Below the pieces are notes generated by a model, which was not told the DNA's origin, ran no database searches, and saw only the letters and a program-made list of their open reading frames with translations. A DNA stretch of 35,131 bases from Erysipelotrichaceae bacterium (GTDB taxonomy: Bacteria > Bacillota_I > Bacilli_A > Erysipelotrichales > Erysipelotrichaceae), in contig JAAYWN010000093.1 in the NCBI GenBank assembly GCA_012516665.1, positions 1-35,131 on the forward strand. Direction: 5' to 3'. Shown in pieces: positions 3,697 to 12,202 of this stretch (position 1 is the first letter of the stretch; each line of letters starts with the position of its first letter). A program made the position numbers and the translations under genes.

Positions 3697-3717
3697 AAAA
3701 CGGGGAGGATGATCCAT

Positions 3718-5385
3718 ATGAATGATGATTTAAAGATTGCACAGGCCGCATCGCTCGAAGACATCTATGTCATTGCCGAAAAAGCAGGTATCGCGAAACA
3801 GTATCTGGAACCTTACGGAACAGATAAAGCAAAGATCAATCCCGCATTCACTGAAACAGTCAAGAACAACAAAGATGGCAAACTGATCCTCGTTACAGCA
3901 ATTACGCCTACCAAAGCCGGTGAAGGAAAATCAACAACAACGATCGGTCTTGCGGATGGATTGCAGAAGATTGGAAAGAAAGTCATGGCATGTCTGAGAG
4001 AACCATCATTAGGACCGGTCTTTGGCTTAAAGGGCGGTGCTACAGGCGGTGGATATGCTCAGGTCGTTCCGATGGAATCAATCAATCTTCATTTCACCGG
4101 AGACATGCATGCCATCACCAGTGCCAACAATCTGATTGCTGCGATGCTGGATAACAGCATCTATCAGGGCAATCTTCTGAATATAGATCCAGACAATGTT
4201 GTCTGGAAGAGATGCATGGATATGAATGATCGTACCATGCGCGATATCACGATTGCACAGGATAAAAAGACCAATGGCGTTGAAAGAAAAGATCATTTTG
4301 TTATTACTGTTGCTACAGAAGTGATGGCTATTCTATGCCTGGCCAAAGACATCAAGGATTTTGAAGCACGTATTTCTAGATGCATTGTTGCTTATACGAA
4401 AGATGGCAAACCAGTTACAGTGAAGGATATTGGCGCAGCCGGAGCGGCCACGGTCGTTATGAAAGAAGCCATCAAACCGAACTTAGTACAGACATTGGAG
4501 CATACGCCTGTCTTTATTCATGGCGGGCCATTCGCAAATATTGCGCATGGATGCAATTCAGTGATTGCAACAAAACTGGCATTGAAACTAGCCGACTATG
4601 TTGTTACGGAAGCAGGCTTCGGCGCGGATCTTGGAGCAGAGAAGTTCTTGGATATTAAATGCAGAAGTGCAAATATCAAACCGAGCGCGGTTGTGATCGT
4701 TGCGACCGTACGTGCATTGAAGATGCATGGCGGGGTCGATACAGATGCATTGACCGAAGAAAATATAGACGCTGTTCTGAAGGGTACAGAAAATCTGCAG
4801 AAACATATTGAATCGATCCAGGCTTTCGGTGTTCCTTATGTTGTAGCAGTCAATAAGTTCTCTAAAGATACAGAAGCAGAAGTATCTGCTCTTCTGAATT
4901 GGTGCAGAGAGAATCATCATCCAGTTGCGGAAGCAGACGGTTGGGCCAAAGGCGGAGAAGGCATGATTGATCTTGCCAATCTGACAGTTGCGACATGTGA
5001 AAAAGAAAATCATTATGCACCGATCTATGATGTCAATGAATCCATTGAAGAGAAGATCAACAAGATTGCAAAGATCGTCTATGGTGCAAAGGATGTTGAA
5101 TTCTCACCGGAAGCAGAAGAAAAGATCAAAGAATTTGCTGAATACGGCTGGGATAAGCTTCCTGTATGTATGGCAAAGACACAGAATTCAATTACAGATG
5201 ATGCAAAGCTGAAGGGAAGACCTGTTGGGTTTACCATTCATGTTAAAGATCTCAGTATTTCCAATGGGGCTGGATTTGTTGTGGCATATACAGGAAATAT
5301 TCTGACCATGCCGGGACTGCCAAAGATCCCAGCGGCAGTGAATATGGGAATTGATGAAAACGGAGAGACGTACGGTCTGTTCTAA
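3718..5385 (+). CDS. fhs: Formate-tetrahydrofolate ligase
   Basis: Fhs makes 10-formyl-THF from formate, ATP and THF, feeding one-carbon units to purine and fMet synthesis; it is characteristic of anaerobic and fermentative Firmicutes. The P-loop TPTKAGEGKSTTTIGLADGL is near residues 65-85, followed by the LREPSLGPVFGLKGGATGGG signature. The protein ends in the conserved IDENGETYGLF. The best start is ATG 3718 (MNDDLKIAQ), nine bases after GGGGAGG; the ORF-track ATG at 3709 directly abuts that Shine-Dalgarno. About 555 residues is full length. It follows recR by about 20 nt and probably belongs to the same transcript. I saw no THF riboswitch in the short gap. Confidence 0.97.
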   Translation: MNDDLKIAQAASLEDIYVIAEKAGIAKQYLEPYGTDKAKINPAFTETVKNNKDGKLILVTAITPTKAGEGKSTTTIGLADGLQKIGKKVMACLREPSLGPVFGLKGGATGGGYAQVVPMESINLHFTGDMHAITSANNLIAAMLDNSIYQGNLLNIDPDNVVWKRCMDMNDRTMRDITIAQDKKTNGVERKDHFVITVATEVMAILCLAKDIKDFEARISRCIVAYTKDGKPVTVKDIGAAGAATVVMKEAIKPNLVQTLEHTPVFIHGGPFANIAHGCNSVIATKLALKLADYVVTEAGFGADLGAEKFLDIKCRSANIKPSAVVIVATVRALKMHGGVDTDALTEENIDAVLKGTENLQKHIESIQAFGVPYVVAVNKFSKDTEAEVSALLNWCRENHHPVAEADGWAKGGEGMIDLANLTVATCEKENHYAPIYDVNESIEEKINKIAKIVYGAKDVEFSPEAEEKIKEFAEYGWDKLPVCMAKTQNSITDDAKLKGRPVGFTIHVKDLSISNGAGFVVAYTGNILTMPGLPKIPAAVNMGIDENGETYGLF

Positions 5386-5398
5386 AAGAAGGTAGACA

Positions 5399-6304
5399 AT
5401 GAGCTCAATTGCGTATGTGACAGATGAAGAGATGCTGGAATATCATCGCCTGTGCAGAAATCGCACAATGCTTTTCTGGCGCCTTGCCAGCAGAAGAAAG
5501 ATTGCAGACTTCCGTAAAGGAGATCTGCTGTTCTTCTTTGCCCGGCCATCGCATTCACGCAAGAAGGCCCTGATTGGCTATGCACATTATGATTCTACGA
5601 TCCGTCTTTCTTTAAAGCAGATGTGGGAGAAATATGGCCCTGAGACGGGCTATGATTCCAAACAGCGTCTTCATGATGCTATTGATCGCGCCGCAAAGGG
5701 CGAGATTCCATCTGTGATGAGATGTCTTTATCTGAAAGATGTTGTTTTCTTTCTTTCACCGATCTATCCCGAAGAAGTAGGTCTGTCTATACAGAACAAT
5801 TTAGAGAGTTATACTTATTTGGACCGCAATGATCCAAGAGTGACGGTCAGGATCCTGCAGACAGCAGCGAAGCATGGCATCGATCTTTGGAGCGCAGATG
5901 CCGAACGTACACCGGATGAGATATTCCGCAATGATGAAACAAGACATCAGCTTGCGGTCATCCATAGTGATATGGGCAAAGAATCAGGATCGCAGCAGGA
6001 GAGGACGCGGGCCCATCGCCTATCGCAGATGCAGCGTGAACAGGATGAATGGGAAAGCATCCGAGGATCAGAAACGGACTGTCTGAAAATGACAGCGCAT
6101 CAGATCATGATTGCCATACCGCTTGCGGTACAGGCAAATGACCGTGACGCAAGAATAAGAGAATTATTCGGCAGAATGAGCCTGTATCGGCTCTGTGCCA
6201 AGAAACAGAAGGTAGACCGTCCTATCTCATTCGAGGTCCTGATGGATCGAGAGATCGACGGATTGAAGGAATTGGTGGAAGATTTTAATAATGAAGAATT
6301 ATGA
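5399..6304 (+). CDS. Uncharacterised protein, possible PUA/EVE-like N-terminal domain
   Basis: I do not recognise a named family. The 301-residue protein is soluble, with no signal peptide or membrane segment. Residues 38-70 (RKGDLLFFFARP, then KKALIGYAHYD) have the small-barrel rhythm of PUA/ASCH/EVE domains, which bind modified bases or RNA; this is inference only. A second conserved-looking block is VVFFLSPIYPEEVGLSIQNN near residues 115-135. The C-terminal half is helical and charged, with an Arg/Gln/Glu-rich linker (about 195-220). The gene is 13 nt after fhs, and its 3' end overlaps mnmG by 14 bases, indicating cotranscription and coupling to a tRNA-modification gene. Confidence 0.85.
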   Translation: MSSIAYVTDEEMLEYHRLCRNRTMLFWRLASRRKIADFRKGDLLFFFARPSHSRKKALIGYAHYDSTIRLSLKQMWEKYGPETGYDSKQRLHDAIDRAAKGEIPSVMRCLYLKDVVFFLSPIYPEEVGLSIQNNLESYTYLDRNDPRVTVRILQTAAKHGIDLWSADAERTPDEIFRNDETRHQLAVIHSDMGKESGSQQERTRAHRLSQMQREQDEWESIRGSETDCLKMTAHQIMIAIPLAVQANDRDARIRELFGRMSLYRLCAKKQKVDRPISFEVLMDREIDGLKELVEDFNNEEL

Positions 6305-8180
6305 CATTATCGTTATTGGCGGCGGACATGCAGGCATAGAAGCGGCATTGGCTGCAGCCAGGCTCCATAAAAGAACATTGCTGCTGAGCTTGTCGATCGA
6401 TAACATCGGCAAGATGCCATGCAACCCAAGTGTCGGAGGCCCAGCCAAAGGAATCGTTGTAAGAGAGATCGATGCTTTGGGCGGACAGATGCCGGTAACG
6501 GCTGATCGCACGGCACTGCAGTTCAAAATGCTGAACAGTGCTAAAGGCCCAGGAGTCAGAGCACTGCGGGTACAGTCCGATAAGATTGCATATAAAAAAA
6601 TGATGCAGGAAGTCTGTCTCCACCAGGAGAATCTGACGGTGAAAGCTGGCATGGCTGTTGAAATCAATGCCGAGAATCAGAAGATTACCGGCGTAACATT
6701 AAAAGATGGCTCTTTCATATCCTGTGAGATCGTGATCCTGACGACTGGAACCTATATGGCCGGTGTCAACATGATCTCCAGCGAAGTGAAGATGGGCGGA
6801 CCGGATATGGAAGAAACAACCAATGATCTTTCCGCTTCCCTGCGTCGCTTAGGCATAGAAACAATGCGCCTGAAAACCGGCACACCGCCGCGTGTACTGA
6901 CTTCATCGATCGATTTTGCAAAGACATCCTATGAACCGGGAACAGATGAATTTCTGCGCTTTTCGGAAACAACAAAAAGAGAAGATATTTGGTCCTTTAA
7001 AGATCAGGTGCCATGCTATCTGACATATACAACGCCACGAACACATGAGATCATTCTTTCCAATCTGCAGAAATCTTCGATGTATTCAGGTGTCGTGAAG
7101 GGTGTTGGCCCGCGCTACTGTCCATCGATAGAAGACAAGCTTGTTCGTTTTAAAGATAAGCCAAGGCATTTATTATTCCTTGAACCAGAGTCTTTATCCA
7201 TGGATACGACTTATGTTCAGGGCTTCAGCACATCGCTGCCAAGAGATATCCAGGAACAGATGATCCATACACTGCCTGGTTTTGAACACTGTATTGTAAA
7301 AAAATATGCATATGCGATTGAATATGATGCAATAGATCCGATCCAGATGAAACCAACATTTGAATCTAAGATCATAGAAAATCTATTTACAGCAGGTCAG
7401 GTCAACTGTACTTCCGGCTATGAAGAAGCTGCGGGTCAAGGCATTATGGCTGGTATCAATGCTTCGCTGAAACTGGAGGGAAGAGAACCTCTTGTCTTTG
7501 GCAGAGATGAATCTTATATTGGTGTATTAGTTGATGATCTGACGACCAAAGGAACTAAGGAGCCATACCGTCTACTGACCAGCAGAGCAGAATTCCGCCT
7601 TCTGCTGCGCCATGACAACGCGGAAGAAAGACTGATTGAAAAAGGAAGATACTGCGGGCTTATTGATGATAAGAGGTATGCAGCTTTTGAAGCAAAGGAA
7701 AAGAAACTGCAGGAAACAGAGTCATCCTTAAAAGATACACTGTTTGAACTGGATGATCCAAAGGTCAAAGCCTATCTGGAAGCAGTTGGATATACGGAAA
7801 CAGAGCATAAAGGAGTAAGCGGCAGCGATCTGGTAAAACGTCCGAAGGTAGAGACAGAAAAATTAATGGCTGCTAAGGATATTGCCGTAGATCATGATCT
7901 GGCAAAAAAAGCAGATATCGATATCAAATACGAAGGATATATCAATAAACAGAGAAGAGAAGCAGAAAAGCTCCAGGCAATGGAAGCACAGAAGCTTGGT
8001 GTTGATTTCAATTATGATGAGATCGACAACTTATCGATCGAAGGCAGACAGAAGCTGGTTAAATTCAAGCCAGCGACCATGGGACAGGCATCCAGGATCT
8101 CAGGCGTAAATCCAGCAGATCTGGCAGTGCTGGCCATTTCAATCAAACAGGGAAAAGGGAGAAAATATGAACTACAATGA
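6291..8180 (+). CDS. mnmG: tRNA uridine-5-carboxymethylaminomethyl modification enzyme MnmG (GidA)
   Basis: MnmG is an FAD-dependent enzyme that, with MnmE, installs cmnm5 at U34 of tRNAs reading NNA/NNG codons. The N-terminal dinucleotide-binding motif is IIVIGGGHAGIEAALAAARL, followed by the family signature MPCNPSVGGPAKGIVVREID. Further motifs are KTGTPPR and GQVNCTSGYEEAAGQG. The C-terminal helical domain, which contacts MnmE and tRNA, ends in PADLAVLAISIKQGKGRK. The 629 residues are full length. The start overlaps the end of the upstream unknown gene, and the last bases overlap the next gene (8167). Its partner mnmE is at 27103 in this same window, about 19 kb away rather than adjacent. 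Confidence 0.98.
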   Translation: MKNYDIIVIGGGHAGIEAALAAARLHKRTLLLSLSIDNIGKMPCNPSVGGPAKGIVVREIDALGGQMPVTADRTALQFKMLNSAKGPGVRALRVQSDKIAYKKMMQEVCLHQENLTVKAGMAVEINAENQKITGVTLKDGSFISCEIVILTTGTYMAGVNMISSEVKMGGPDMEETTNDLSASLRRLGIETMRLKTGTPPRVLTSSIDFAKTSYEPGTDEFLRFSETTKREDIWSFKDQVPCYLTYTTPRTHEIILSNLQKSSMYSGVVKGVGPRYCPSIEDKLVRFKDKPRHLLFLEPESLSMDTTYVQGFSTSLPRDIQEQMIHTLPGFEHCIVKKYAYAIEYDAIDPIQMKPTFESKIIENLFTAGQVNCTSGYEEAAGQGIMAGINASLKLEGREPLVFGRDESYIGVLVDDLTTKGTKEPYRLLTSRAEFRLLLRHDNAEERLIEKGRYCGLIDDKRYAAFEAKEKKLQETESSLKDTLFELDDPKVKAYLEAVGYTETEHKGVSGSDLVKRPKVETEKLMAAKDIAVDHDLAKKADIDIKYEGYINKQRREAEKLQAMEAQKLGVDFNYDEIDNLSIEGRQKLVKFKPATMGQASRISGVNPADLAVLAISIKQGKGRKYELQ

Positions 8181-8805
8181 AGTCATTTCCAATGTCCAGA
8201 TCTATGGCTTTGAGGATGCCGTCAAGGGCGCAAAGTATTCCTATGCCGTCGATCTGAACAAAGTTTCCAGCGAGATATCAAAATCAACCATTGCGTTAGC
8301 CGCTTCACAGCCAGGCAGCGGCCACGATCAGTTCATGACAGGAATCATTTTGCAGTTCGATCTGACTTTTTCCAATAAAGCGTGGGTAGAAGCAGAACGC
8401 TATAAATTCCTCAATTTCATTACATCGCAGTCGACGATGCATCGCATCACAAAGTTTAATCTGGATGATGTATATATGCCGCAGGTCGATAAGCGGATCG
8501 TAGAGATCATGAAGGAAAAGGTGGCCGCATATAATCAGCTGCAGACAGAGATCAAAGAGAAGCAGGAAAATGGAAAGGATGTCACAGCTCTGACAGCGAA
8601 GCTTGATCAGATGTATCTTGAACTGCTCTATTCCAATCCGGCTGGCTTCCGGCTGACGGCGAAAATGAGCACAAATTATCGTGCACTGAAGACAATATAT
8701 CGGCAGCGCAAAGATCATAAATTGCCCGAGTGGAGAGCCTTCTGCCAATGGGTCAGAACTTTGCCGCACAGTGAATTCATTACTGGTGAAACAGCCGCAG
8801 AATAA
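8167..8805 (+). CDS. Uncharacterised protein with ThyX-like pattern, lacking the ThyX catalytic motif
   Basis: This 212-residue protein is not one I can name. Its order of features resembles flavin-dependent thymidylate synthase ThyX: an early IYGFEDAVKGAKYSY block, GSGHDQF near 50-56 (compare GHxSxFEH), a beta-strand IILQFDLTF, ERYKFLNFITSQSTMHRI near 77-94 where ThyX has RHRx7S, and a late NYRALKTIYRQRKDHKLPEW (170-189) where ThyX has its N-R-L-x-LR-x-AQxEIR helix. The RHR and NExSxRY residues are absent, so thymidylate synthesis is unlikely. I recall similar proteins in Firmicute phages, but that is memory and unchecked. It overlaps the end of mnmG by 14 bases and ends that operon. Confidence 0.85.
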   Translation: MNYNEVISNVQIYGFEDAVKGAKYSYAVDLNKVSSEISKSTIALAASQPGSGHDQFMTGIILQFDLTFSNKAWVEAERYKFLNFITSQSTMHRITKFNLDDVYMPQVDKRIVEIMKEKVAAYNQLQTEIKEKQENGKDVTALTAKLDQMYLELLYSNPAGFRLTAKMSTNYRALKTIYRQRKDHKLPEWRAFCQWVRTLPHSEFITGETAAE

Positions 8806-8997: not shown

Positions 8998-9696
8998 ATG
9001 ACCATTGAAGAATTGCGCACAGCATCAGAAGAGATTGGCATCCATCTCACAGATTCCATGGCAGAGCAGCTGGAAACATACTGCGGACTTCTGCAGGAAT
9101 GGAATGAAAAGATCAATCTCACGGCTATAAAAGAAAAGGAAGAGATCATTGAAAAACACTTTCATGATTCGCTGCTTCCTTTAGCTGGCCGCAGGCTGGA
9201 AGGAACTGCAGCAGATGTCGGCACTGGAGCAGGTTTTCCTGGCCTTGTCTGGAAGATCGTTTTCCCTGAATTGCCGGTTGCTTTGATCGAGCCGACAGGA
9301 AAGAGATGTACCTTTTTAAAAGAGGTCATTGATCAGCTTCATTTAAAGGAAATCACGGTCTACAACGAACGTGCGGAAGAACATGCCCTGAAGCATCGGG
9401 AAGAATATACAGCAGTTACCGCAAGAGCAGTTGCAAATCTCAGCATCCTGGCAGAGATCTGTGTTCCTTTATTAAAGAAGGATGGACTGTTCATTGCCAT
9501 GAAGGGATCGCAGGGGCATCAGGAAGCACTTAGTGCTCAGCATGCGATGAAGGTCCTCGGCTGTACCTTAGAAGAAGAAAAAGAGACCTCTCTTTCAGAA
9601 GGAGATCACCGCGTGAATCTCTTTTATCGAAAGACCAGTCATACCCCTATTGAATATCCGCGCAATTATGGCCGGATCAAGAAACAGCCGCTGTAA
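8998..9696 (+). CDS. rsmG: 16S rRNA (guanine-527-N7)-methyltransferase RsmG (GidB)
   Basis: RsmG methylates N7 of G527 in 16S rRNA using SAM; loss gives low-level streptomycin resistance in several bacteria. The 232-residue protein has the expected N-terminal helices (CGLLQEWNEKINLTAIKEKEEI), the SAM-binding motif I ADVGTGAGFPGLVWKI, the acidic LIEPTGKRCTFLKEV segment, and TARAVANLSILAEICVPLLKKDG. GAAGGAATACATG gives a clear ribosome binding site. It is the first gene of the segregation operon, in the conserved Firmicute order rsmG-noc-soj-spo0J, 11 nt before noc. In most Firmicutes mnmG directly precedes it; here the ThyX-like gene and the DnaA/Noc control region intervene. Confidence 0.97.
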   Translation: MTIEELRTASEEIGIHLTDSMAEQLETYCGLLQEWNEKINLTAIKEKEEIIEKHFHDSLLPLAGRRLEGTAADVGTGAGFPGLVWKIVFPELPVALIEPTGKRCTFLKEVIDQLHLKEITVYNERAEEHALKHREEYTAVTARAVANLSILAEICVPLLKKDGLFIAMKGSQGHQEALSAQHAMKVLGCTLEEEKETSLSEGDHRVNLFYRKTSHTPIEYPRNYGRIKKQPL

Positions 9697-9707
9697 AAGG
9701 AGATCAT

Positions 9708-10526
9708 ATGGCAGGAAAGAACATATTTGAACTGTTTAATAACACAGGAAAAGAAGTACATAAGATCATTACGCTGCCTATGGAAATGATCCAGCCTTCC
9801 CGCTATCAGCCGCGTCTGAAGTTTGATGAGGAAGCACTGCAGGAATTGGCGGAATCGATCAAAGAGAATGGCCTGATCCAGCCGATCACGGTGAGACAGA
9901 TCGATGACCATTATGAGATCATTGCTGGAGAAAGAAGATATCGGGCAGCGCGGCTTGCCGGATATGAGGAGATCAAATGCTATGTTCTCTCCCCAAGTGA
10001 AGACCAAGCCGCTCAGATGGCTTTAGTCGAGAATGTGCAGAGAGAGAATCTCAGTGCCATTGAGGAAGCGAAAAGCTATCTGCAGATCATGCGCCAGGCA
10101 AGTCTGACCCAAGAACAGGTCGCGCGCAAGATAGGAAAGTCGCAGTCGGCAGTTGCCAATAAGATCCGTCTGCTGAATCTGCCGCAGGAGATCCAAGATG
10201 GTGTTATTGAAGGAAAGATCACAGAACGCCACGCCAGAGCATTGCTCAGTGCGCCGGAAGATAAGCAGAAGAAAGCCTATCATCATATTTTAAAAAAGGA
10301 ATTGAATGTACGTGAAACAGAAGCATATATTGAAACATTGAATCTTCCGGAAAAGACCCATAAGCGTCAGAAGACACAGGGCTTCTCCAGAAACACACAG
10401 GTCGCTGTCAATACGATCAATCAGTCGGTAAAGATGATCGATAAATTAGGCATCCAGGTCAAAGTAGAAACGCAGGAAACAGATCAGGAAGTACGGATGG
10501 TCATCCATCTGCCGAAGGAAAATTAA
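9708..10526 (+). CDS. noc: Nucleoid occlusion protein Noc
   Basis: Noc is a ParB paralogue that binds NBS sites, spreads, anchors DNA to the membrane and blocks division over the nucleoid. The N-terminal IFELF segment may be an amphipathic membrane-targeting helix. The CTP-binding motif GERRYRAARLAG is at residues 74-85, and the HTH is about 134-156. Residues Q146 (GKSQS), K152 (ANK) and R174 (TERHAR) match Noc-type specificity positions, while the ParB at 11315 has R, M and G there. The C-terminal GFSRNTQVAVNTINQSV block also resembles Bacillus Noc. The 272 residues are full length. AAAGGAGATCATATG gives a strong start. Two NBS palindromes (8947, 26470) lie in the window. Confidence 0.93.
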   Translation: MAGKNIFELFNNTGKEVHKIITLPMEMIQPSRYQPRLKFDEEALQELAESIKENGLIQPITVRQIDDHYEIIAGERRYRAARLAGYEEIKCYVLSPSEDQAAQMALVENVQRENLSAIEEAKSYLQIMRQASLTQEQVARKIGKSQSAVANKIRLLNLPQEIQDGVIEGKITERHARALLSAPEDKQKKAYHHILKKELNVRETEAYIETLNLPEKTHKRQKTQGFSRNTQVAVNTINQSVKMIDKLGIQVKVETQETDQEVRMVIHLPKEN

Positions 10527-10538
10527 GGGGATACTACT

Positions 10539-11315
10539 ATGGGAAAGATTATTGCAATTGCCAACCAGAAAGGCGGGGTCGGGAAAACAACAACAGCTAT
10601 GAATCTGGCGGCAGGTCTTGCCTTTGTAGGCAAGAAAGTACTGCTCGTTGACTTTGACCCGCAGGGAAATGCAACACATGGCATCGGTGCCAACAAAGTT
10701 GGATTTACAAAATCGGTCTACGATGTACTGATGACAGATACATCAGTGAAACAGGCTACAGTAACACTGCAGATGCCACCGATGGATGTGCTTCCTTCAA
10801 CAATCGATCTTTCCGGTGCAGATGTTGCCATGTCGCAATATGAGAATGGCAGAGAACAGCTTTTAAAAAATAAACTGTCCGCGGTCAAGAATGATTACGA
10901 CTATATTATTATTGACTGTCCGCCGGCATTGGGCCTGCTGAATACAAATGCATTGACGGCATCAGATTCAGTTATGATCCCCGTACAGTGTGAATACTTT
11001 GCCTTGGAAGGACTGACACAGCTGCTTTCCACGATCCGCTTAGTACAGAAGCTCTGGAATCCGCAGCTGTCTATTGAAGGCGTATTGCTGACGATGTTCG
11101 ATGCCCGTACAAAGCTATCGGTCGAAGTGCAGCAGGAAGTGAGAAAATATTTTAAAGAAAAAGTCTATAAATGCTTTATCCCAAGAAACGTCAAGCTCAG
11201 CGAGGCACCATCCAGGGAGCAGACTATTTTCGAATATGATACAAGAAGTGAAGGCTCAAAAGCCTATGCTCAATTAGTTCGGGAAGTAATTACCCAGAAT
11301 GAAAGGAGAAAGTAA
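10539..11315 (+). CDS. parA: Chromosome partitioning ATPase ParA (Soj)
   Basis: ParA/Soj is a deviant-Walker ATPase that forms ATP-bound DNA-binding dimers and, with ParB-parS, moves the origin region; in Bacillus it also regulates DnaA. The deviant Walker A KGGVGKTTTAMNLA is at about residues 11-24, with the signature lysine. DFDPQGNAT is Walker A', and YIIIDCPPALGLL is Walker B. The C-terminal IPRNVKLSEAPS motif is typical of chromosomal ParA. At 258 residues it is full length. Its stop overlaps the parB start region (AGTAATGG), so the pair is translationally coupled. The DnaA-box cluster upstream of this operon fits the known Soj-DnaA link, by inference. Confidence 0.97.
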   Translation: MGKIIAIANQKGGVGKTTTAMNLAAGLAFVGKKVLLVDFDPQGNATHGIGANKVGFTKSVYDVLMTDTSVKQATVTLQMPPMDVLPSTIDLSGADVAMSQYENGREQLLKNKLSAVKNDYDYIIIDCPPALGLLNTNALTASDSVMIPVQCEYFALEGLTQLLSTIRLVQKLWNPQLSIEGVLLTMFDARTKLSVEVQQEVRKYFKEKVYKCFIPRNVKLSEAPSREQTIFEYDTRSEGSKAYAQLVREVITQNERRK

Positions 11316-12202
11316 TGGCACAGGAAAAACATCTTGGCAGAGGACTGAATGCGATCTTTGGTCAGAATGTAGAACAGTTTCTAGATGATATTCAGAATAA
11401 TGCAACAGAAGTGCCGGGCAGAAGAGAAATTGAGATCAATATTTCTGAGATCCGGCCGAATCCATATCAGCCAAGAAAAGAATTTGAACCAAAAGCATTG
11501 CAGGAATTGGCAGATTCCATCAAGACACATGGCATTTTTACGCCATTGCTGGTCAGAAAAAGCGTATCCGGCTATGATCTGATCGCAGGCGAAAGAAGAC
11601 TGCGGGCAGCGAAGCTGGCAGGATTGACACAGGTACCTGCTATTGCTGTAGACTTCACCGAAGAACAAATGATGGAGATCTCAATTCTGGAAAATGTTCA
11701 GAGAGAAGATCTGAATCCTATCGAGGAAGCAGCAGCATATGAATCTTTAGTCAAGAAACTTGGCTATACGCAGGAAAAGCTTGCTCAGAGAGTTGGCAAG
11801 AGCAGAGAATACTGCGCCAATATGATGAGATTGCTGAAATTGCCAAGTGAGGTCCAGCAGTTGGTCATTGAAAAGAAACTGACAAATGGGCATGTCAGAC
11901 CTTTGCTGTCATTGGAAGATGATGATGCCATCTATGATGCGGCAATGAAGATCGTCCATGATAAGATGTCCGTCCGCGATGTTGAAAAATATGTCAAAGA
12001 ACTGAATGGAAAAGCTCCTAAGCCAGTCAAGGCAGAAAAGAAAAAGGATCCGATGATCCGCGATATTGAAGCCAGAATGAGCAGCAAACTTGGTACAGAA
12101 GTAGAGATCCAGACCAAGAAGATCAGTATTTCTTTCAGCGATACAGATGATCTGAACCGCATTCTGGAAATACTAGGATGCTTAGAAGAAAGCTATGAAT
12201 GA
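11315..12202 (+). CDS. parB: Chromosome partitioning protein ParB (Spo0J)
   Basis: ParB is the CTP-dependent clamp that loads at parS. The N-terminal LGRGLNAIFGQN is the ParA-interacting tail. The domain continues with IRPNPYQPRKEFEPKALQEL, the CTP-binding motif GERRLRAAKLAG, ENVQREDLNPIEEA, and the HTH containing RVGKSREYCANMMRLLKLP. The C-terminal dimerisation domain contains ARMSSKLGTEVEI. The specificity positions read R (GKSR), M (ANM) and G (TNGHVR), of the ParB type, which fits the perfect parS at 357. At 295 residues it is complete. It is the last gene of the rsmG operon and is followed by a terminator. Confidence 0.97.
   Translation: MAQEKHLGRGLNAIFGQNVEQFLDDIQNNATEVPGRREIEINISEIRPNPYQPRKEFEPKALQELADSIKTHGIFTPLLVRKSVSGYDLIAGERRLRAAKLAGLTQVPAIAVDFTEEQMMEISILENVQREDLNPIEEAAAYESLVKKLGYTQEKLAQRVGKSREYCANMMRLLKLPSEVQQLVIEKKLTNGHVRPLLSLEDDDAIYDAAMKIVHDKMSVRDVEKYVKELNGKAPKPVKAEKKKDPMIRDIEARMSSKLGTEVEIQTKKISISFSDTDDLNRILEILGCLEESYE

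Follow-up and report, generated by a model that had tools for sequence, protein, structure and literature searches.

The window analysed here (the whole stretch of 35,131 nucleotides, from genome G000) carries a small gene between mnmG and rsmG, the start of which lies 14 bases inside mnmG (Table 1). The open reading frame is a real, conserved gene, as the initial annotation had described it, and the three motifs quoted there (GSGHDQF, ERYK..TSQS and NYRALKTIYRQRKDHKLPEW) are all present in the product. MnmG carries out an FAD- and folate-dependent tRNA modification, and the product of fhs supplies the folate one-carbon pool, which is used both by MnmG and by thymidylate synthase. MnmG resembles the function proposed below in its cofactors (CH2-THF and FAD) and is the genetic neighbour, but it is unrelated in fold and sequence and acts on tRNA.

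Within the window lineage the order fhs-orf301-mnmG-gene-rsmG is conserved, and the order of the first four is kept at loci L036, L037, L038, L041, L042, L053 and L057. The protein encoded by orf301 has conserved counterparts of 35-65% identity throughout the genus and in related Erysipelotrichaceae/Holdemania. The genes directly 3' of rsmG have an origin-proximal arrangement. The initial annotation regarded the gene as captured between two core genes; the position between mnmG and rsmG stands, but 'captured' implies too recent an event for a linkage to mnmG that is common to all 45 genus loci with mnmG in range and to three further Erysipelotrichaceae/Holdemania loci. The linkage is limited to Erysipelotrichaceae-type genomes and is not seen in Clostridia or phages. 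A prophage origin of the window copy was rejected, as all genus loci have a chromosomal context.

Table 1. Features of the locus and conserved motifs of the encoded protein (positions in the window; motif counts are out of 67 aligned members).
Feature	Position	Strand	Basis or conservation
fhs, formate-tetrahydrofolate ligase, upstream in conserved cluster	3709..5385	+	Pfam FTHFS, E 5e-261
orf301, 301-aa protein	5399..6304	+	no Pfam match
mnmG	6291..8180	+	Pfam GIDA
212-aa protein of ThyX fold, proposed as a divergent thymidylate synthase	8167..8805	+	ORF with ATG start; AF2 model; fold matches; homologues and distribution
Motif 1, G-x-G-H53-D-x-[FW]	8314..8334	+	H 63/67; aligns with ThyX H53
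Motif 2, E-R78-Y79-K80-...-T-S-Q-S89-T-M-H-R93, in place of ThyX RHR-x7-S-x-R-Y	8395..8445	+	R78, S89 67/67; H92, R93 65/67
Motif 3, P158 ... T-N170-Y-R172-A-L-K-x-I-Y-x-Q-R181-x-x-H-K-L-P-E-W	8638..8733	+	P158, N170, R181 67/67; R172 64/67
rsmG, downstream neighbour	8998..9696	+	Pfam GidB
parB-like gene, parA, parB	9708..12202	+	

Family membership and predicted fold

Searches of Pfam, NCBIfam and PDB sequences with the single window protein gave nothing useful. There was no Pfam Thy1 match at E<=10 and no PF00303 (Thymidylat_synt) match, the latter being absent from the whole of G000 as well; weak matches to Com_YlbF and P10 were rejected as coiled-coil noise. The protein does match the phage family PHROG 6721 (E 4.3e-48, residues 7-207 of 212), as do all 67 aligned family members. 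PHROG 6721, which carries no function, is thus the same family; the present analysis assigns it a fold, extends it to bacteria and proposes what it does. Homologues are present in 46 of the 60 genus genomes, in Lachnospiraceae, Oscillospiraceae and Ruminiclostridium MAGs and in at least 562 viral-contig stretches, bearing out the suggested relatedness to phage genes. AKP44750.1 of phage phiCDIF1296T and QBJ04112.1 of phage Fnu1 are among the intact members. Intact orthologues have dN/dS values of 0.03-0.16, and conservation of the family is far beyond chance. A sister subfamily with the motif D-T-Y-K-V-G-T-V-A-N-S-x-S-T-M-H-K accounts for 550 viral-contig stretches together with bacterial members. 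No description of this family was found in literature searches of partial coverage.

Weak matches to PF02511 (Thy1) were obtained for 34 of the 67 members, with a best E of 1.5e-4, and in six Clostridia genomes the sub-threshold PF02511 matches, which cover the C-terminal part of the proteins, are the same genes that the family profile found independently. The window protein alone does not match Thy1, and hhalign of the family against ThyX reaches a modest probability of just 48%. By strict criteria the protein is outside PF02511, because the family stays below the Pfam gathering score of 24.8 bits and does not have the full RHR motif. The PF02511 matches in G031, G072 and G093 (L077-L079) were set aside as other odd Thy1 proteins outside this family; these are unusual Thy1-domain proteins that lack the RHR motif or are otherwise odd.

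The AlphaFold2 model of the window protein, built with 67 relatives, has a pLDDT of 94.3 and a pTM of 0.86, and a Foldseek search against the PDB gave ThyX in all 50 matches listed (best E 1.6e-6, probability 1.00, with a modest TM of ~0.6), headed by the H. pylori ThyX structure that contains FAD and dUMP. In a viral structure library the closest models belonged to phage proteins that have not been characterised, with annotated ThyX next, and the sister subfamily's own model has the ThyX fold again (best E 3e-8). The ThyX-like fold of the initial annotation is therefore upheld, the structure search that it proposed having returned ThyX structures and not an unrelated fold. The protein is homologous to ThyX in fold and most likely works like ThyX.

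In-frame TAG codons occur in the viral members L109, L112, L116, L117, L127, L129, L147, L149 and L151. Some of these sit where relatives have Q (NIYI*RKDHRLPEW against IYxQRK), suggesting that the phages concerned may read TAG as glutamine. One TAG is also present in each of two bacterial matches, in G308 and G418.

Active-site residues

The register between the family and T. maritima ThyX was determined by ungapped scoring over 121 offsets with 2000 shuffles, and conservation was assessed over 67 members. The best registers, 0 for residues 50-82 and +7 for residues 147-176, were reached by none of the 2000 shuffles, and pair H53 with H53, R78 with R78, P158 with P151, N170 with N163, R172 with R165 and R181 with R174 (family and T. 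maritima ThyX, respectively). A different register from MAFFT and hhalign, which placed MHR on RHR, was rejected because the ungapped registers score best and because the predicted strand-helix-strand order fits them.

ThyX S88 is kept as family S89 in all 67 members, with a shift of one residue. The ThyX RHR motif is kept in part: R78 is present throughout (67/67), H79 is replaced by Y and R80 by H, R or K, and the sister subfamily has T-Y-K in its place. Also replaced are R90, the lid residue Y91 and the phosphate-binding R147; the family has M91, H92 and L154 at these positions, with R93 following H92. The literal RHR-x7-S and NExSxRY signatures are absent, as was first reported, but the ThyX residues kept in the ungapped register mean that the signature is altered and not simply missing, and the pattern of kept and replaced residues indicates a site that has been rebuilt and not erased. 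In ThyX, RHR binds FAD (PMC6514825), R78, R80, S88 and R90 contact dUMP (PMC3498832), and H53 makes a stacking contact with flavin or folate, to which Y91 forms a hydrogen bond (PMC11940539). As RHR, R90, Y91 and R147, with their roles in binding FAD or the dUMP phosphate or in the lid, are replaced, the chemistry or substrate could differ.

Compared with the ThyX structures 1KQ4, 3N3Y and 2AF6 (PF02511), the family thus shares the fold and the order and spacing of H53, R78, the S88 equivalent, P151, N163, R165 and R174. It differs in its ~14% identity to solved ThyX, in R-Y-[HKR] for RHR, in S-T-M-H-R for S-x-R-Y, in L for R147 and in a C-terminal signature of its own (H-[KR]-L-P-E-W...FC...LP).

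Distribution and the known thymidylate synthases

Thymidylate synthesis is an essential process that also serves as a drug target; no thymidylate synthases other than ThyA and ThyX are known. Profile searches found no ThyA, ThyX or DHFR in the window genome, which does have thymidine kinase. Among the 60 genomes of the genus, ThyA was found in 27, PF02511 in two and neither in 31. The gene is carried by 27 of these 31, all with intact motifs, including G058, a genome in a single contig of 2.6 Mb; the four without it are 69-90% complete. Of the 27 ThyA-positive genomes, ten are without the gene and 17 carry it. Motifs are altered in 14 of these 17, with GHD or STMHR lost in some of them, and intact in three; the copy in G028, a ThyA-positive genome, is cut by a contig end and is intact. 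A tree of MnmG shows about six changes in ThyA presence and about six in motif loss, and independent pairs are never opposite, although just three contrasts are independent and well supported and the genome counts overstate independence. DHFR was absent from eight of the 12 ThyA/ThyX-less genus carriers searched, compared with none of 19 ThyA-positive genomes, a pattern familiar from ThyX organisms.

The motif-altered copies (L167, L169-L179) are full-length with dN/dS values of 0.07-0.14, and are therefore not simple pseudogenes. Such purifying selection makes a second role possible in ThyA-positive genomes, where these copies are perhaps repurposed.

The distribution that the initial annotation had proposed to examine, phages included, extends over the genus, several Clostridia lineages and viral contigs. 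Neither ThyA nor ThyX was found in any of 29 MAG carriers outside the genus (Lachnospiraceae, Oscillospiraceae, Ruminiclostridium, Holdemania and other Erysipelotrichaceae), a set that was found through the gene and consists partly of close relatives. In 293 Clostridia genomes drawn evenly, 259 had ThyA or ThyX over threshold and 34 had neither. The family was present in 24 of the 34 and in six of the 259 (Fisher p 6e-22), counts which are inflated by relatedness, since genomes within a lineage are not independent. The genomes are mostly MAGs. Most of the 24 carry the sister subfamily. ThyA, ThyX and the family are all missing from ten Clostridia (G132, G139, G166, G215, G217, G277, G283, G293, G361 and G417); five are 0.8-0.9 Mb in size and most are without thymidine kinase too, and they are possibly host-dependent or possess yet another synthase.

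Gene neighbourhoods outside the genus differ from that of the window. Clostridia neighbours include lgt, aspartokinase, gyrB (recognised by reading the sequence) and others, and these are therefore chromosomal genes. The sister-subfamily gene is directly upstream of folA in G337, G169 and G194, and one gene away in G297, a folA-adjacent place that thyA takes in relatives of the window organism such as G061 and G074. In phage ProddE, which has no annotated thymidylate synthase, the gene is a few genes from those for NTP pyrophosphohydrolase and nrdD/nrdG.

Salvage of thymidine as the sole source was rejected for most carriers. Among 52 carriers without a known synthase, a real thymidine kinase is missing from 47 and DHFR from 36, in searches confined to thymidine kinase among the deoxynucleoside kinases and to the DHFR type encoded by folA. 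According to Myllykallio's rule, as restated in PMC1971073, tdk is retained by bacteria in which both thyA and thyX are missing; the 47 carriers break this rule unless the family is a synthase.

Proposed function and competing explanations

Carriers that lack both known thymine-making enzymes make it very probable that the gene is an unrecognised version of an essential enzyme. We put at roughly 85% the probability that it encodes the enzyme for de novo thymidylate synthesis in this organism, on a divergent branch of the flavin-dependent ThyX fold that has gone unannotated. Several findings favour this reading: the fold, the ThyX residues that are partly kept, the lack of ThyA, canonical ThyX and often thymidine kinase in carriers, the folA adjacency in three genomes of the sister subfamily, and the conserved cluster with fhs and mnmG. 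ThyX itself is an FAD-binding homotetramer that turns dUMP into dTMP with CH2-THF. The protein would bind dUMP and reduced FAD, take a one-carbon unit from 5,10-methylene-tetrahydrofolate and methylate C5 of dUMP to give dTMP. Contacts with flavin and uracil would come from R78 and R181, and the basic residue at position 80, S89 and H92-R93 may take over the phosphate-binding and lid work of ThyX R80, S88, R90, Y91 and R147. The folate product would be tetrahydrofolate and not dihydrofolate, as in ThyX, a suggestion prompted by the many carriers that have lost folA; in the sister subfamily, members linked to folA may form a different product. The likeness to ThyX would thus include the pathway step, the loss of folA and a distribution that excludes ThyA. 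With ThyA (PF00303) the family would share the reaction and, for some sister-subfamily members, the folA-adjacent position, whereas fold and sequence are unrelated. The role in folate or nucleotide chemistry that was first suggested for the protein gains support from these data, the activity being presumed.

Thymidylate-synthase relatives serve phages for modified bases (PMC7824862). This precedent, the large phage distribution and the changed phosphate- and flavin-binding residues would be consistent with a ThyX-fold enzyme that modifies some other pyrimidine nucleotide or base (hydroxymethylating dUMP or dCMP, for instance, chiefly for use in phage DNA), in hosts that import thymidine. Such a function is improbable, as the gene lies on ordinary chromosomes in core positions (mnmG, lgt, aspartokinase, gyrB, folA), the carriers have no known synthase and 47 of 52 no thymidine kinase, and a base-modifying enzyme leaves the exclusion of ThyA unexplained.

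The initial annotation favoured a dead or repurposed fold, and the overlap and conserved linkage with mnmG could be read as those of a regulatory or tRNA-related partner of MnmG. The copies in ThyA genomes, which have lost motif residues and are still under purifying selection, point the same way, and for these degenerate copies the description may be true. For the family it is very improbable and probably wrong: the mnmG linkage is absent in Clostridia and phages, the motif residues are kept in every ThyA/ThyX-less genus carrier, and the intact form tracks the absence of ThyA and ThyX while damaged-looking copies occur in ThyA genomes. That the carriers are thymidine auxotrophs living by salvage, with co-occurrence due to shared gut or rumen ancestry and phage exposure, is hardly credible, for although most are gut or rumen bacteria, G000 has thymidine kinase and relatedness inflates the counts, the pattern recurs in Erysipelotrichaceae and several Clostridia lineages, three folA adjacencies are present and 47 of 52 are without the thymidine kinase gene tdk, which PMC1971073 reports in bacteria lacking thyA and thyX.

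A de novo thymidylate synthase thus remains the preferred explanation. On balance, it is probable that the two subfamilies together form a third class of thymidylate synthase, with the ThyX fold and a catalytic constellation of its own, which makes all dTMP in ~8% of sampled Clostridia, in a large Erysipelotrichaceae genus and in many of their phages; such an enzyme may depart from ThyX in its reductant or in the form of its substrate. If this is true, the family would close a gap in the many genomes from gut and rumen that at present give the impression of thymidine auxotrophy, metabolic models would be corrected and a large phage family of 'unknown' proteins (PHROG 6721 and the sister subfamily) would gain a function. 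It would also show the extent to which the ThyX active site can be rebuilt.
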